A stretch of 23,304 nucleotides of DNA from a virus: the IMG/VR virus record IMGVR_UViG_3300030329_005000, positions 1 through 23,304 of that record, one strand, 5' to 3'. Below, piece by piece: positions 13,251 through 23,304 of the stretch. The stretch's first letter is position 1. Each line of letters begins with the position of its first letter. The notes under the pieces are model-generated. The model made no database searches, was not told where the DNA came from, and saw only the letters and a program-made list of their open reading frames with translations. The translations under genes and the position numbers were made by a program.

Positions 13251-14063
13251 GTGGCAGGAAAATTGCACATTCTTAAAACGACCGAATACCAGTATGGGTA
13301 TTTGAAGAAGGCGGCCGACCAGGCAAAGCTCGACGGTGGGACACGGATGACGCCGCCGCCTACCGCGCCTACGACCGACAGTAATGTCATCACGGCCTAC
13401 AACGATGACACTGTCACCATCAAGCGTGGGTGGGGGGTCGCGATGACCAATCCCTTGCGAAGCCCAGCCAACTCGGAGATGCTGTCCCGCTTCATGGGCC
13501 GCAAGGCCGTCAAAATCAAGCGTGCCTTTATCAACACGAGTGCAGCGTCAGGCGGCGGATACCCAGGGGACGGTCACAACCCAGGACCGCTCGCAATCGC
13601 ATACGAAGCAATCCCCCCCAAGGGTATCGGACGAATCGTCGTCGCTGGTCCTGCTTATGCTTACATCGACATATTAGAGACGCCAGCTGCGATCGCCGCC
13701 CCGCACGCAACGGCGGGCAAAGAGGGGATTCTGGCCGGACGAACCCAAGGCCTGGCGGGTTGTCGAATAATCGCGTCCAGTGGGGCAGCTGGTGCCGGTT
13801 GGGCACTGGTCGACGTCGGGAGCTACGTCTCTCCTTACGCCTCGATGTATCGGTGCCAGCTTAAAGCGAATCTGCTCTCGGGGACCGGCACGATTTTGGT
13901 CGACAACTTGGTCCCGTATGATGGCATCGCAACGACTTACGATCCCACGGCAGAGAAAACAGCGACTAACTTCCTCGCGTTATCCGGCGACAACAACGAT
14001 TCGGCCGTGATTCGTTACTCAGCGACCGACGACCGATGGGATCTGTTGGAGGTGACATGCTGA
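13251..14063 (+). CDS. Uncharacterised tail-tip-region protein
   Basis: A 270-residue protein starting at GTG after TAGGAG. It is unrecognised. Low-complexity PPPTAPTT occurs near residues 35-44 and a Gly-rich GGGYPGDGHNPGP segment near 101-113. The remainder is beta-rich (VTIKRGWGVAMTNPL, GRIVVAGPAYAYIDIL, IIASSGAAGAGWALVDVGSY, SAVIRYSATDDRWDLLEV). The look is that of a tail-tip or fibre-associated protein assembled onto the tail. It overlaps no neighbour and is followed one base later by the next gene. Confidence 0.75.
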   Translation: MAGKLHILKTTEYQYGYLKKAADQAKLDGGTRMTPPPTAPTTDSNVITAYNDDTVTIKRGWGVAMTNPLRSPANSEMLSRFMGRKAVKIKRAFINTSAASGGGYPGDGHNPGPLAIAYEAIPPKGIGRIVVAGPAYAYIDILETPAAIAAPHATAGKEGILAGRTQGLAGCRIIASSGAAGAGWALVDVGSYVSPYASMYRCQLKANLLSGTGTILVDNLVPYDGIATTYDPTAEKTATNFLALSGDNNDSAVIRYSATDDRWDLLEVTC

Positions 14064-18525: not shown

Positions 18526-18719
18526 ACTTAGTGCAAGACATTGTCAACGCTCTGAAAAGCAAACGTGTCATCCTCGGTATCATCACTGCCGCGATCGTCG
18601 GTGTTAACCAGGAACTGCAACTGTTTGCGGAAACGGACATGACACGCATCGTCGCAATCGTGGGAGCATTGATCCTCGGCGACAGCTTGCGAGCAACGAA
18701 TCCTGATAAGCCACGTTAA
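18522..18719 (+). CDS. Holin-like small membrane protein
   Basis: 65 residues with two short hydrophobic segments, VILGIITAAIVGV and IVAIVGALILGDSL, separated by a polar loop (NQELQLFAETDMT) and a charged C-terminus. Size, two helices and place after the tail genes resemble holin-type proteins that permeabilise the inner membrane at lysis. No endolysin was recognised nearby. The stop TAATG overlaps an ATG at 18719 that probably is not used (see 18818). Confidence 0.6.
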   Translation: MNLVQDIVNALKSKRVILGIITAAIVGVNQELQLFAETDMTRIVAIVGALILGDSLRATNPDKPR

Positions 18720-18725
18720 TGTTCA

Positions 18726-18803
18726 TCACCGGGGCAGGTGCTTCCCTGCCCGGTGGTCGGCGAAGCGCCCCTCGACCACTGCCCTGCCCCGGTGACCTTT
18801 TTT
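18726..18803 (+). terminator. Branched GC-rich terminator at end of late operon
   Basis: TCACCGGGGCAGG (18726-18738) pairs perfectly with CCTGCCCCGGTGA (18783-18795), followed by CC and six T (18798-18803). A smaller hairpin, GTGGTCG (18753-18759) with CGACCAC (18773-18779), sits inside. The first arm could instead pair with CCTGCCCGGTG (18744-18754) with one bulge, so two exclusive folds exist. Confidence 0.7.
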
Positions 18804-18817
18804 CAGGATCGACGCAA

Positions 18818-19306
18818 ATGCATGACGAACTCTTAACGCTGCTGGCTCGGCAGAGCCGCTTGCTAGTGCGTGGGATGTACGTGCTGGCCCTCCTGCTGGC
18901 GATTCTCGCCGGCACTCTTTTATTGCTCGTTCAGTCGCTCGCCCCTGGGGCAGCGCTCGTTATGCGGCCCGATGGGATCAACGCCAACATCGTCGACCTC
19001 GTATCGAATCTGGGGCTGCCGGTAGCGTTGATTCTAATCATGCTGTTCGCCGCCTGGCGATTGGCTTCGGCCGCTGCCCCATTGTGTAAGCGTGTCGTGG
19101 AAGAACATCTTACGGCCCTGGAAGAATCGCAGCAGCAGCAGGCTCGTATCGTTGCGGCCATCGAGCAACAAACCCGGTTGCTCGAAAAACTCTCCGCAAC
19201 GAATCGCAGCTTAGCGCACCTCGGTGAAGCAGGCCAGCGAGCGCTCGACGACGACCGGGAAGCAGCACAGCAGTCACTAAGCCGAATGCGAGAGACGCTC
19301 GGTTGA
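18818..19306 (+). CDS. Two-pass membrane protein with C-terminal coiled coil
   Basis: Starting at 18818 gives 162 residues. A longer in-frame start at 18719 would translate the terminator hairpin as MFITGAGASLPGG and is unlikely. Two membrane segments (VLALLLAILAGTLLLLVQ near 20-37 and LPVALILIMLFAAWRLA near 68-84) are followed by a Gln/Glu-rich coiled coil (ALEESQQQQARIVAAIEQQ near 100-118). There is no clear ribosome-binding site before the ATG. It could be a phage membrane protein for lysis or exclusion; the family is not recognised. It lies after the terminator and directly before the first repeated leader. Confidence 0.6.
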   Translation: MHDELLTLLARQSRLLVRGMYVLALLLAILAGTLLLLVQSLAPGAALVMRPDGINANIVDLVSNLGLPVALILIMLFAAWRLASAAAPLCKRVVEEHLTALEESQQQQARIVAAIEQQTRLLEKLSATNRSLAHLGEAGQRALDDDREAAQQSLSRMRETLG

Positions 19307-19315
19307 CAACTTTTT

Positions 19316-19564
19316 GAGCGAGCGATTGAGCCTATAGGGGTAAAGAATCTGCTGCAATTTTCTTATTTCGGCCGCCCGGAATCCCGGCCCAGCCTGTTGG
19401 TTTTTTTTGCCCCCCCCGTTCGGAGGCGTCCCCCCCTGGGGTGCAGGGTTGCCGCCCCGGCCGGCTGGCGAGGGCTGCGCTTGCCACACCTATTGCGTGT
19501 CCCCGCGATTGCCGACTATTCTCTTAACACTGTTAATGTTTCTCTTTCAAGAAAGGTGCAAAAG
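19316..19564 (+). repeat. Repeated leader, copy 1 (most diverged)
   Basis: Begins GAGCGAGCG, then CCTATAGGGGTAAAGAATCTGCTGC. The central palindrome is lost or decayed (CAATTTTCTTATTTCGG). A degraded GC hairpin and T8 (19401-19408), C-tracts, then TTGCCG (19509-19514), 16 bp and TGTTAA (19531-19536) inside TTAACA-C-TGTTAA. It ends GAAAGGTGCAAAAG directly before the ATG at 19565. 249 bp in all. It separates the membrane gene from the short paralog. Confidence 0.75.
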
Positions 19565-19960
19565 ATGGGAATGGTTAAAAGACACATCGAAAACATTTCA
19601 GGCAATAAGCTGGGAATGGATGGAGTAATCACAGTGTCCCTGATGGATGTTCTGGCACATAGGGGATGGGAATATCTGGAAGAAAAACCGGAACATGTCC
19701 TGGTAGACATGCTGCTTTGCGACTGCGCAATAGCCCCTGAGCATTGGACGGCTGTGCGCGAAGCCGCAGAACGGGCGGTGAATAATCCGGGGGTCAGTTT
19801 TGCAAATCGTCCAAGCATTGAGGGTGGATTGCGGGCGCTGCATGACATCGCAACGGGCAGACATGTGACCGAAACCACGATGGAAAGTTCACGCGTTCAC
19901 AACTTGGTAGCGAAGTTTGCCCGTTTAGTAGTGTGTTTTTATTGGCACTGGTCGTACTAG
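19565..19960 (+). CDS. Uncharacterised protein, short paralog of the 22647 gene
   Basis: 131 residues from the ATG that follows GAAAGGTGCAAAAG; longer in-frame starts lie in the non-coding leader. It is clearly homologous to residues 1-121 of the protein at 22647 (MGMVKRH, KLGM, SLMDVL, EYLEE, DMLLC, RALHDIATGRHVT, KFARL). It then diverges at once to a hydrophobic, stop-terminated VVCFYWHWSY, so it lacks the paralog's remaining 69 residues. It has the look of a compact, mostly helical domain. Either an ancestral short form or a truncated copy; sequence alone cannot decide. Function unknown. Confidence 0.7.
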   Translation: MGMVKRHIENISGNKLGMDGVITVSLMDVLAHRGWEYLEEKPEHVLVDMLLCDCAIAPEHWTAVREAAERAVNNPGVSFANRPSIEGGLRALHDIATGRHVTETTMESSRVHNLVAKFARLVVCFYWHWSY

Positions 19961-19979
19961 AAAGCACGGGAGGAAACCA

Positions 19980-20483
19980 ATGACTGACGACAATAAGCTC
20001 GATAAGTTTGAAGACCCACCCATGATCAAGATCATTAAGAAACTCATCTCGCACGCCAATGAACTTGCGCAGTGGATACCGGATGAACCTCATCTAGCAA
20101 GTGAAGAAGAAGAAGCGATTTTCACCCGCATGTGGGACGAGCATGAGGCAATTATCAAAGAAGCTGAGAAGCTGCTGAGAAAGGAAAGCAAGCTGGCTCG
20201 ATTCAACGCGATCTGTGATAAGATTGCAGTCGAGGTAACGGACGTTGTCACTGTTAGCGAAGGAGTTGCCATCCGGGCGACGGTTGACGCTGGTGGTGAC
20301 TACGTTTTCTGTGAGGTCGATCCCGACGACTGCGTTCGAGCGCTAGTCAACATCACTCGACTCTGGAACTGGGCTGACCAGGAAGCCGATGGTACGCCGT
20401 ACTGGGACATTCTCAAGGCGCGATTCCCGCTTGCGTTTCGAGATCGCTCGAACACCAACAGTTTGCGATTCACTTACAACTAA
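19980..20483 (+). CDS. Uncharacterised 167-residue protein
   Basis: It begins 19 bases after the short paralog, with GGGAGGAAA before the ATG, and so belongs to the same cassette. Residues 14-80 are helical and charged (IKIIKKLISHANELAQWI, EEEEAIFTRMWDEHEAIIKEAEKLLRKESKL). The last 70 residues are mixed alpha/beta with AIRATVDAGGDYVFCEVDPD and CVRALVNITRLWNWAD. I do not recognise a family. It is translated on the same message as the next two genes. Confidence 0.7.
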   Translation: MTDDNKLDKFEDPPMIKIIKKLISHANELAQWIPDEPHLASEEEEAIFTRMWDEHEAIIKEAEKLLRKESKLARFNAICDKIAVEVTDVVTVSEGVAIRATVDAGGDYVFCEVDPDDCVRALVNITRLWNWADQEADGTPYWDILKARFPLAFRDRSNTNSLRFTYN

Positions 20484-20503
20484 CTAAACGAAAGGTGCTA
20501 ACG

Positions 20504-20761
20504 ATGATCAAAATGAATTCGAAGAATAACCGCGCATGGAAGGTCGCTCTGACAGTGCATCCCGAATGCGTCGAGACAAAGGTCGATGATCTAAACCGTT
20601 CGGGTTGCTTAACGGTATCCCTGGAAAACACTCTCGCTTGCTACATCGAGATGAACGGAAAAACATTCTACATTGACGACTCCACTGGGGAGGGCATTGC
20701 AGAGTGCTTCGATGCGCCGTGCTGCTGCGACGATGCTATTGCGGCCCGTGAGCAAGCGTGA
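20504..20761 (+). CDS. Small Cys-rich protein of cassette 1
   Basis: 85 residues starting at the ATG after GAAAGGTGCTAACG; the upstream in-frame GTG at 20495 lies within that ribosome-binding sequence. The content is alpha/beta with AWKVALTVHPECVETKVDDLN, CLTVSLENTLACYIEMN and a C-terminal CFDAPCCCDDAIAA, so five cysteines lie in the last 50 residues. Unknown function. The shared ribosome-binding sequence links it to the leader family. Confidence 0.65.
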   Translation: MIKMNSKNNRAWKVALTVHPECVETKVDDLNRSGCLTVSLENTLACYIEMNGKTFYIDDSTGEGIAECFDAPCCCDDAIAAREQA

Positions 20762-20789
20762 CAACAATACAAATTATCCGGGAGCAAAT

Positions 20790-21071
20790 ATGACTGACAT
20801 TAAACACATCGCCGTGTGGGATTTCCCGCTACAGGAATTCGATGCCTGGCGAACATTCACGGGCAACGAGGAGATCCGTTCATTCGCGGATTACCAGGAC
20901 ATGCTGACGGGCGCGATCACTGATTTTGAACAGGCTGGATTTGAGTGGGTGAAGGTTGCATTAACCGTCGAGGAAATGCGCAACGCACTTGATGACCTGG
21001 GCCTGGACAATACGCCGGACTCGCGTGCCGTCGTTCTTAATCTGGCGTCAACAGGCGGCGAAAAGTTTTGA
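20790..21071 (+). CDS. Small uncharacterised acidic protein
   Basis: 93 residues from the ATG after GGGAGCAAAT. Its stop TGA is the first part of the second repeated leader (TTTTGAGCGAGCG). The protein is acidic and mixed alpha/beta (HIAVWDFPLQEFDAWRTF, DYQDMLTGAITDFEQAGFEW, EMRNALDDLGLDNTPDSRAVV). It is the last gene of cassette 1. No family is recognised. Confidence 0.65.
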   Translation: MTDIKHIAVWDFPLQEFDAWRTFTGNEEIRSFADYQDMLTGAITDFEQAGFEWVKVALTVEEMRNALDDLGLDNTPDSRAVVLNLASTGGEKF

Positions 21072-21124
21072 GCGAGCGATCGCCCCCCTAGGGGTAAAAA
21101 ATCTGCTGCGAAAATCCGATTTTC

Positions 21125-21160
21125 GGTCGGCCGGCAAGCACCCGGCCGGCCGTTTTTTTT
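21125..21160 (+). terminator. Terminator inside leader copy 2
   Basis: GGTCGGCCGG (21125-21134) pairs with CCGGCCGGCC (21142-21151) over 10 bp with one G-T wobble, seven-base loop, and is followed by G and eight T (21153-21160). It would end the transcript of cassette 1. Confidence 0.75.
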
Positions 21161-21261
21161 GGTCACCCCCCCCCTGGGGATGCCCCCCCTGGGTGGTCGG
21201 TTTTTCGGTCGCGTCGGTCGCTGTTGCGACGGTCCTGCTGCGGTATTGCAAAGGACAATAC

Positions 21262-21289
21262 TTGCCGATTAGGATTGTGAACCTGTTAG
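21262..21289 (+). promoter_or_regulatory. Conserved leader promoter box TTGCCG-N16-TGTTAG
   Basis: Identically spaced boxes occur in all three leaders (19509-19536, 21262-21289, 22588-22615), each about 30 bases before the first ATG. The -10 half is a poor sigma70 match, but its exact conservation between otherwise diverged copies suggests function, perhaps with an activator or another sigma factor. Confidence 0.45.
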
Positions 21290-21320
21290 TTCTTTTGTTT
21301 TTTTTGAAAGGTGCAAAACG

Positions 21321-21524
21321 ATGAGTATTCTATCTTACGTTGCCAACGTGCAATCTAAACTGCGCAGCATGCGCCCAGATTTGCCGGTCGACGACCCCGA
21401 CTTTCGCCAGTGGTTTGCAGACACGGGGCGCATTGCGTCGGCAATGTCTGACGCATCATGTGGGGTAGCTGGTCGCGGTCTACGCGTTGCGGAAGAAATC
21501 GCTGAACGGTATCACATTCTTTAA
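21321..21524 (+). CDS. Small uncharacterised protein of cassette 2
   Basis: 67 residues, first gene after leader copy 2, with GAAAGGTGCAAAACG directly before the ATG. Predicted helical and basic near the N-terminus (MSILSYVANVQSKLRSMRPD), with DDPDFRQWFADTGRIASAMS and a C-terminal AEEIAERYHIL helix. No family is recognised. The GP88-family gene follows after 24 bases with its own copy of the same ribosome-binding sequence. Confidence 0.6.
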   Translation: MSILSYVANVQSKLRSMRPDLPVDDPDFRQWFADTGRIASAMSDASCGVAGRGLRVAEEIAERYHIL

Positions 21525-21548
21525 TCCAGTCATGAAAGGTGCAAAATT

Positions 21549-22388
21549 ATGACTATTCCGACGCTAGATTTTAACGGTTCAACTCCCGTGGTTACGATTC
21601 CGCAGGGTTTCCAGGTTTCTAAGTTTTTCAAACTCGAGAAGAAATACCATTTTAAGGTCAACAACCTACTTCAAGACGGGGACGGCAACACCAAGCTGCG
21701 CAAGAATAAGAAACGCGGTTTTAAAACCGTCGGCTTGAATCTTGCCCCTGCTAAGCTTGCAATGGTTGGGAACACCTGCCCGGCGTCTACCAAAGGGTGC
21801 AGGGAATCGTGCCTAGATAATTGCGGATTGCGCGCAGTGTTCACATCTATCCACATGGGTAAAATCGCCCGGACTGTTTTATGGTTCAAGGACCGCAAAC
21901 GATTTCTAGAGATGCTAGACGATGAACTAGAACGGAAACGGTACAGCGCAGAACGGGCGGGCGATCGCCTGGCCGCGCGTCTCAATGTTTTTTCAGATAT
22001 CCCGTTTGAAAAACATGGGGTGATGGATAGGCACCCCGAAATAGAATTTTACGATTACACAAAACGTCCTAAACGGTTTGGGCAAGTGCGCCCGAACTAC
22101 TGGGTTACCTTGTCGCGATCGGAAAACAACGAGACGCAGTGCTTGTATGCATTGTCCCAAGGCGCGAACGTCGCGGTTGTTTTCGCATCGATCGAGGGTA
22201 AGCAATTCACCACGTTGCCCAAGACCTGGAAAGGTTTCCCCGTGGTAGTTGGTGATGAATCGGATTTAAGGTTTCAAGATCCCAGGGGCCGCACTCGCGG
22301 CCGCGTTGTCGGGCTTGAATTGAAAGCCCCAAACAATCAACTTTACCAGAAGGCGATTGATAGCGGGTTCGCTCTACCGGTCGCGTGA
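21549..22388 (+). CDS. GP88-family phage protein
   Basis: 279 residues. The order of motifs is that of the GP88 family known from mycobacteriophage gene 88 and many others: LNLAPAKLAMVGNTCPAS, then the cysteine cluster C77-x6-C84-x3-C88-x3-C92, then helices with FKDRKRFLEML, RLNVFSDIPFE (145-155), FYDYTKRP (167-174), LSRSENNE (188-195) and the C-terminal GDESDLRFQDPRG (235-247) with VVGLELKA. The biochemical function of the family is not established; its cysteines suggest a metal site. GAAAGGTGCAAAATT precedes the ATG. It ends just before leader copy 3. Confidence 0.85.
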   Translation: MTIPTLDFNGSTPVVTIPQGFQVSKFFKLEKKYHFKVNNLLQDGDGNTKLRKNKKRGFKTVGLNLAPAKLAMVGNTCPASTKGCRESCLDNCGLRAVFTSIHMGKIARTVLWFKDRKRFLEMLDDELERKRYSAERAGDRLAARLNVFSDIPFEKHGVMDRHPEIEFYDYTKRPKRFGQVRPNYWVTLSRSENNETQCLYALSQGANVAVVFASIEGKQFTTLPKTWKGFPVVVGDESDLRFQDPRGRTRGRVVGLELKAPNNQLYQKAIDSGFALPVA

Positions 22389-22394
22389 ATTGTT

Positions 22395-22646
22395 GAGCGA
22401 GCGAAAGCGCCTATAGGGGTAAAAAATCTGCTGCGAAAATCCGATTTTCGGTCGGTCGGCAATCACCCGGCCGGCCGTTTTTTTTGGTCCCCCCCCCGCT
22501 GGGGATGCCCCCCCCTGGGTGCCCGGTTTTTCGGTCGCGTCGGTCGCGGGTGCCCCGGGCCTGCTGCGGTATTGCAAAGGAAAACAATTGCCGATTAGGA
22601 TTGTGAACCTGTTAGTTTTTTTTGTTTTTTTGAAAGGTGCAAAACG
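22395..22646 (+). repeat. Repeated leader, copy 3
   Basis: GAGCGAGCG; CCTATAGG palindrome; GTAAAAAATCTGCTG; CGAAAAT-CCG-ATTTTCG (22434-22450); terminator (22450-22485); C-tracts; TTGCCG (22588-22593), 16 bp, TGTTAG (22610-22615); T-rich run; GAAAGGTGCAAAACG before the ATG at 22647. Nearly the same length as copies 1 and 2 (249, 251 and 252 bp). Confidence 0.85.
22450..22485 (+). terminator. Terminator inside leader copy 3
   Basis: GGTCGGTCGG (22450-22459) pairs with CCGGCCGGCC (22467-22476) over 10 bp with two G-T wobbles, followed by G and eight T (22478-22485). Compared with copy 2, a C-to-T change keeps pairing by wobble. Confidence 0.7.
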
Positions 22647-23219
22647 ATGGGAATGGTCAAAAGACATCTCGACAAAATTTCGTGTGACAAGCTTGGAATG
22701 TCTGGAGAAATTACACGTTCTCTTATGGACGTCCTGGAGTTCCGGGGGTTTGAGTATTTAGAAGAACACCCTCAGCACTTCCTGATTGATATGCTGTTAT
22801 GTGAATCGCTGATTGATTCGGACTATTGGACCAAAATTAGGCAAACGGCAGAACGGGCAAGCGATCACCCAGGAATGTCTTTTAGTTGCTCGAATCCAAT
22901 TATTAGAAATGGACTTGTTGCCCTGCGAGATATTGCAACGGGAAAACACGTTACGGACACGACGATAGCGAGTACCATTTATCGGGACGTTGTCGGCAAG
23001 TTTGCCCGTTTGCAAATTGGCAGCTATTTAGTCAAAGCTACGGCAGAACCACTTTATGATATTGTGCGGTTTTACAATCCGAATATCCACACAATCGGCG
23101 CGCCTGTCATCAGGACTGGATTGACTCTGGAGGAAGCCCAGGCGCATTGCCGCGATCCAGAAACGAAAAAAGACGGCGTCTGGTTTGACGGCTACACTGA
23201 GCAAAAGGGGGGCGAGTAA
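22647..23219 (+). CDS. Uncharacterised protein, long paralog with a phage C-terminal motif
   Basis: 190 residues. Residues 1-121 are the paralog of the 19565 protein (MGMVKRH, KLGM, SLMDVL, EYLEE, DMLLC, GLVALRDIATGKHVT). Residues about 139-190 match a small-protein pattern common in phages: IVRFYN, GAPVIRTGLTLEEAQAHCRDPET (154-172 area), then GVWFDGYTE. Free-standing proteins of that pattern are widespread in phage genomes and have no known function. This gene seems to join the two modules. Leader copy 3 with GAAAGGTGCAAAACG directly precedes the ATG. Confidence 0.75.
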   Translation: MGMVKRHLDKISCDKLGMSGEITRSLMDVLEFRGFEYLEEHPQHFLIDMLLCESLIDSDYWTKIRQTAERASDHPGMSFSCSNPIIRNGLVALRDIATGKHVTDTTIASTIYRDVVGKFARLQIGSYLVKATAEPLYDIVRFYNPNIHTIGAPVIRTGLTLEEAQAHCRDPETKKDGVWFDGYTEQKGGE

Positions 23220-23220
23220 T

Positions 23221-23304
23221 ATGATTACTTTTGAAAAATGGCGAGAATCGGCAATCCGGCAAAAACCGGAACAAACCGAGCAAATTCTAAACAGGAAAGT
23301 TTAC
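23221..23304 (+). CDS. Start of another uncharacterised protein, 3' end outside window
   Basis: The ATG follows the previous stop by one base, with GGGGGGCGAG upstream. The 28 visible residues (MITFEKWRESAIRQKPEQ, then TEQILNRKVY) are charged and probably helical. Nothing further can be said. Confidence 0.5.
   Translation, partial: MITFEKWRESAIRQKPEQTEQILNRKVY

Follow-up and report, generated by a model that had tools for sequence, protein, structure and literature searches.

The window, the whole 23,304-nucleotide stretch of DNA analysed here, is a 23.3-kb IMG/VR virus record from an uncultured virus. It encodes a tyrosine integrase, a lambda-type portal, a prohead protease, a major capsid protein and a tape measure, and is therefore assigned to a temperate tailed phage. 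The phage integrase at 1015-2742 is the only recombinase detected in the window; to its left, on the minus strand, lies a Matrixin (Peptidase_M10) gene (3-554), probably a piece of the host genome bordering the provirus. The last tail-module gene (18719-19306) directly precedes the first of three non-coding sequences, herein called headers (or leaders), which split the post-tail region into unit A (unit 1, 19565-21071), unit B (unit 2, 21321-22388) and unit C (unit 3, from 22647 to beyond the window). The tail gene, the headers and the accessory genes all lie on the plus strand. Unit 1 begins with A1 (131 aa, 19565-19960), the slot gene after header 1, which had no match in Pfam or PHROG, and continues with A2 (167 aa, 19980-20483), which has a weak START_2 match under the curated cut-off, and A3 (85 aa, 20504-20761), an open reading frame of unknown function. 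It is closed by A4 (93 aa, 20790-21071), whose homologues likewise close the unit ahead of header 2 in two related phages described below (G003 and L078). Unit 2 consists of the slot gene B1 (67 aa, 21321-21524), identified as an open reading frame, and B2 (279 aa, 21549-22388), a member of the GP88 family (PF17338). As a single query, GP88 retrieved only distant homologues from annotated phages and no close relatives from viral contigs. Unit 3 starts with the slot gene C1 (190 aa, 22647-23219), which found nothing when searched against viral contigs. A1 and C1 are 57% identical at the amino acid level over 127 residues, so that units 1 and 3 start with paralogues, and B1 is unrelated to both; the first-pass annotation had described units that begin with related or unrelated small genes.

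Measured from GAGCGAGCG to the base preceding the ATG, the three copies span 249 bp (19316-19564), 251 bp (21070-21320) and 252 bp (22395-22646), the lengths and places first proposed for them. Headers 1 and 3, as delimited by sequence comparison, alignment and a box matrix, occupy 19311-19564 and 22390-22646, and header 2 (21065-21320) overlaps the stop codon of A4. Each copy starts at the stop codon of the gene before it or immediately thereafter. Within this record, leader 3 as a query retrieved leader 2 at E 2e-101 (91%) and, through a 139-bp match of 75%, leader 1 at E 2e-17; the three aligned leaders show 83% mean column identity. Headers 2 and 3 are alike (~90%) along the entire 250 bp, beyond the functional sites. 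The parts follow one another in the order box TTTTTGARCGNNC...GCCTAYNNG, placed at the stop codon or just 3' of it, hairpins with T-tracts or C-tracts, promoter, ribosome-binding site (RBS) and ATG. The ordered elements claimed by the first-pass annotation are all present in this order, with a weak terminator in copy 1. The window stops within unit 3, and the count of three headers thus covers the window only; G002 and G020, two circular-looking relatives, carry three headers each and no more.

A search for further copies recovered 11 more headers, at corresponding places in four related uncultured phages. A capsid protein search yielded 31 related contigs, and the headers of G002 and G003 were located after the same last tail-module gene; G020 was found with a pattern derived from the 5' box of the G002 and G003 headers, and L078 by a search with the gene preceding header 1. 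The family thus comprises 14 headers in five phages (three each in the window, G002, G020 and G003, two in L078), all with one order of parts and spanning roughly 250-310 bp. In a held-out test, a profile of 12 headers built without L078 returned exactly two full-length L078 copies (E 5e-14 and 2e-13), both with a stop codon on one side and a start codon on the other. Within the family, the window copies have diverged furthest, and they were missed by a whole-header profile from which they had been left out. A 28-column box matrix, also built without the window, ranked the window headers first (header 1), second (header 3) and fourth (header 2) among ~46,600 window positions, the top position being the 5' box of header 1, TTTTTGAGCGAGCGATTGAGCCTATAGG, at 19311-19338. 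The homology of the window copies to the other headers therefore rests on box, layout and position, and the 5' box is the header feature most shared between phages.

Each phage carries its two or three headers after the tail module. Position 1, after the 18719-19306 gene, is equivalent in all five phages; the C-terminal half of this gene is conserved in each of them and header 1 comes next every time. Position 2, after A4, is equivalent in the window, G003 and L078; the window and G003 also have position 3, behind the GP88 gene, in common. The anticipated variation in cassette number was borne out in that G003 carries header 3 and one gene between GP88 and the gene that follows it, and L078 is without both. 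More distant capsid relatives (e.g. G007, G008, G012-G016 and G019) gave no leader, BLAST of the header against 50,697 annotated phage records gave no match, and a window-type leader pattern found nothing in viral contigs. AGGGGTAAANAATCTGCTGC was hit twice in a scan of genome contigs, in unrelated phyla, and both hits were taken as chance. Several neighbouring arrangements were also observed. On L082 (8315-13700), related accessory genes occur without headers, with unit-1 type genes inverted and a divergent promoter; this contig has a B1 relative ahead of GP88 and TTGACA-N16-TATAAT with the same GCCGA beside the -10 element, and its arrangement is possibly an alternative state of the module. 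In the distant leaderless relative G008 (L048, 2070-3270), another start-associated repeat, CCCCCCTCAATTAAGGATCAACAGAATG-like, stands before several consecutive accessory genes. A header-like element with C-tract hairpins closes the module at L078 13230-13549, L043 1-350, L041 1-400 and L074 6900-7250, with a weak header-profile match in L078 at 13489-13524 (E 2e-4).

Within the window, predicted intrinsic terminators of 11 pairs followed by T8 lie in header 2 (21124-21160) and header 3 (22449-22485). Their energies of -22.5 and -19.8 kcal/mol were equalled by none of 20 shuffles. In header 1, the hairpin energy scan found a weak hairpin followed by T8 (19384-19408; -8.9 kcal/mol), equalled by 11 of 20 shuffles. 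Across the family, strong intrinsic terminators are predicted in five headers (window 2 and 3, G002-3, G020-3 and G003-2), and the hairpin scan found no convincing terminator in window 1, G002-2, G020-1 and G003-1. Inside header 3 of G020 (L074 8041-8180), CCGCCCATTC is repeated in tandem and ~25 bp are additional. At the other end, every copy is bounded by a stop codon and a start codon and has as its last element an RBS, which in header 1 is the sequence motif AAAGGTGCAAAA at 19552-19563. This motif is not confined to the leaders, as it also occurs ahead of the internal genes A3 (20491) and B2 (21535).

The promoter had initially been read as TTGCCG-N16-TGTTAR, an assignment that the relatives overturn. 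In the matching alignment columns, header 1 of G002 has TTGACA-N17-TATAAT (12 of 12 consensus bases), and it follows that TTGCCGA adjoins the -10 element and that TGTTAR lies downstream of it, where the sequence suggests that it is probably located at the start of the transcript. By this comparison, promoter 1 is predicted at 19493-19522 (TTGCGT-N18-TATTCT, with TTGCCGAC beside the -10), and promoters 2 (21246-21275) and 3 (22572-22601) both as TTGCAA-N18-TAGGAT with TTGCCGAT beside the -10. The window promoters match 7-8 of 12 consensus bases, and a simple promoter scan of the window did not list them; a -35/-10 pair with 16-18 nt spacing was present in all 12 headers checked. A search of the window for TTG-N15..19-YCGA-TANNNT gave exactly three hits, all of them in leaders, against 0.2 expected; since the window was part of the alignment from which this pattern was drawn up, the count is supportive and not independent. 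In five of the six headers of G002 and G020, the palindrome TATCGG-N4-CCGATA lies between -35 and -10, and elsewhere each of these genomes has just a looser match. Unit 1 of both phages encodes a helix-turn-helix (HTH) protein, 98.6% identical between the two. One regulator may serve all headers, and in G002 and G020 this unit-1 protein is the candidate; that it binds TATCGG-N4-CCGATA is a guess. The same palindrome was seen in two other viruses (L076 700-900 and L077 650-820), and these operator-like matches are not leaders; they lie in repressor/cro-like intergenic regions.

The genes behind the headers were compared most closely in G002 and G020, whose sequences agree at 93.5% along the 23 kb leading to header 1 and which have all three headers in common. 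Homology continues across headers 1 and 2 and breaks off near the start codon, from ~15 bp ahead of it to 10 bp past it according to the alignment scoring used. In all three slots, the encoded proteins are unrelated between the two phages (best E 0.3 or worse), and past the unit-1 slot gene homology picks up again later in unit 1. Header 3 is shared over 140 bp at 96.4% identity, with flanks on both sides that do not align under strict scoring. Such replacement at headers, which is plain in the sequences, was seen in one phage pair only. In the window, A1 and C1 are paralogues while header 3 is nearest to header 2, so that gene and header histories are uncoupled. In the header tree, copies from one phage, not those at one position, fall together, although the placement of G003 header 1 is less certain. 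The headers of G002 and G020 pair by position; global pairwise identities with free gaps are inflated and were left out of this comparison. The grouping of headers by phage despite their corresponding positions is most simply explained by recombination between copies, which would have homogenised them. The proposal that the header is a modular element for separately transcribed units, with exchange at its copies, is supported by the 11 further copies, the G002/G020 slots and the varying header number, and the header looks like a socket for swapping genes.

We consider it probable that the header is a composite terminator-promoter-RBS unit and at the same time an anchor of homology at which genes are exchanged, a solution convergent with that of the PeSL cassettes discussed below. 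Its 5' half would close the preceding transcript by means of the box at the stop codon, the hairpin with T-tract and the C-tract hairpin. The 3' half would open the next one through a sigma70-type promoter with TTGCCGA or the CCGATA palindrome beside the -10, followed by the AAAGGTGCAAA ribosome-binding site and the ATG. With the same header ahead of every accessory operon, a shared sequence for homologous recombination is provided, and genes right behind a header could be exchanged, or shifted between slots, with their start and stop signals kept. We infer homologous recombination as the cause of the exchange.

Alternatively, the headers could be plain operon borders that derive from one old duplication, are held alike by shared constraint and are not involved in gene exchange. 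Operon borders are indeed expected to carry a terminator and a promoter, the correspondence of positions 1 and 2 in the window, G003 and L078 indicates that the header positions are old, and the pairing by position in G002 and G020 speaks against a very recent exchange between slots. However, window headers 2 and 3 are alike beyond the functional sites, the headers group by phage at corresponding positions, and between G002 and G020 the genes in all three slots behind the headers were replaced, with header 3 left as an island of homology. Operon borders of this kind are therefore an unlikely explanation, although the most credible of the alternatives. It is highly improbable that the headers are a structured regulatory RNA family, riboswitch-like or of the antitermination-leader type, through which a sensed signal would control the units. 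The conserved 5' box and the several hairpins per copy would suit such an RNA, and the first-pass annotation had raised a structured RNA family, but RNAalifold on 12 leaders gave a consensus of -0.43 kcal/mol with 4 pairs and hence no sign of a conserved structure, and an Rfam search with the header gave no match. Moreover, the box, which is the most conserved one, lies upstream of the predicted promoter and would belong to the 3' end of the RNA before it rather than to the leader of the next gene. As no common structure was found, the family was searched with a sequence profile rather than a covariance model.

Several near-identical copies per genome and a sharply conserved 5' box might also point to a small transposable element (MITE-like) or to dedicated recombinase sites as in integron cassettes. 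Yet the header termini carry no inverted repeats, the best 14-mers matching at 7-10 of 14 positions, the headers are confined between stop and start codons and end in an RBS, and the integrase is the sole recombinase seen in the window. Unlike integron cassettes, each unit here has its own predicted promoter and usually several genes; this reading, too, has very little probability. Slightly less improbable, and still doubtful in the extreme, is that the 5' box is the recognition site of a dedicated phage or host enzyme and the header an active cassette-insertion site, in which case the module would represent site-directed gene capture and not a passive target of homologous recombination.

The composite unit and homology anchor has its nearest known counterpart in PeSL (promoter early stem-loop), the mobile regulatory cassettes of T4-type phages, in which a promoter and a stem-loop mediate gene shuffling (Arbiol 2010; Comeau 2014; via PMC4503421 and PMC3950731). 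PeSLs are intergenic composites of a sigma70-like promoter and a stem-loop terminator; in the headers both activities are predicted, the terminator being strong in five copies and weak or absent in others. Like the headers, PeSLs occur in several copies in a variable accessory region, and close relatives shuffle genes at the copies, as one pair of header phages indicates. The promoter of PeSL has its counterpart in the predicted -35/-10 pair found by comparison in the headers. The header phages differ in being temperate, with an integrase and a lambda-type portal, rather than T4-type myoviruses, and the header differs in its length of 250-310 bp, in its conserved 5' box and RBS and in heading multi-gene operons; in addition, it has no detectable DNA similarity to any of the 50,697 phage records. 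The working principle is the same, and the headers are not PeSLs by descent.

Other systems share single traits. In the haloarchaeal virus HGTV-1, a composite promoter/inverted-repeat motif is likewise repeated ahead of many accessory ORFs and was proposed to regulate and shuffle genes, but with a TATA-box archaeal promoter, single-gene spacing and an archaeal host (PMC3950731). The SAS/ESAS motifs of cluster K mycobacteriophages are also repeated before start codons in the non-structural genome half, some copies with inverted repeats, but consist of a 13-bp start-site repeat and 17-bp inverted repeats with no promoter-terminator composite (PMC3203893). The 13-bp SAS, GGGATAGGAGCCC, is not enriched in the window, where it has a single match, at 3 mismatches, against a chance expectation of 5.1. 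The long repeats of Campylobacter group II phages are similarly extragenic and split the genome into rearranged modules, but form arrays of 1-2.9 kb with 72-86 bp units, separate modules of 28-55 kb and have no promoter-terminator header (PMC4546147). The accessory genes described here also resemble the morons of lambdoid phages. Morons are accessory genes beside structural genes with their own promoter and terminator, signals that are unrelated from one insertion to another; here, in contrast, one header family is common to all units.

Altogether, the header family is real, belongs to a different group of temperate phages and is undescribed in the phage collections and literature compared. 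The PeSL principle, a joint stop and start signal that doubles as a recombination anchor, would thereby extend to temperate phages without detectable DNA similarity to the phages from which it was originally described. This suggests that a general means of leaving accessory genes open to exchange, with transcription kept intact, has evolved convergently. In addition, the header provides a sequence handle for locating the variable, mostly uncharacterised genes directly behind it.
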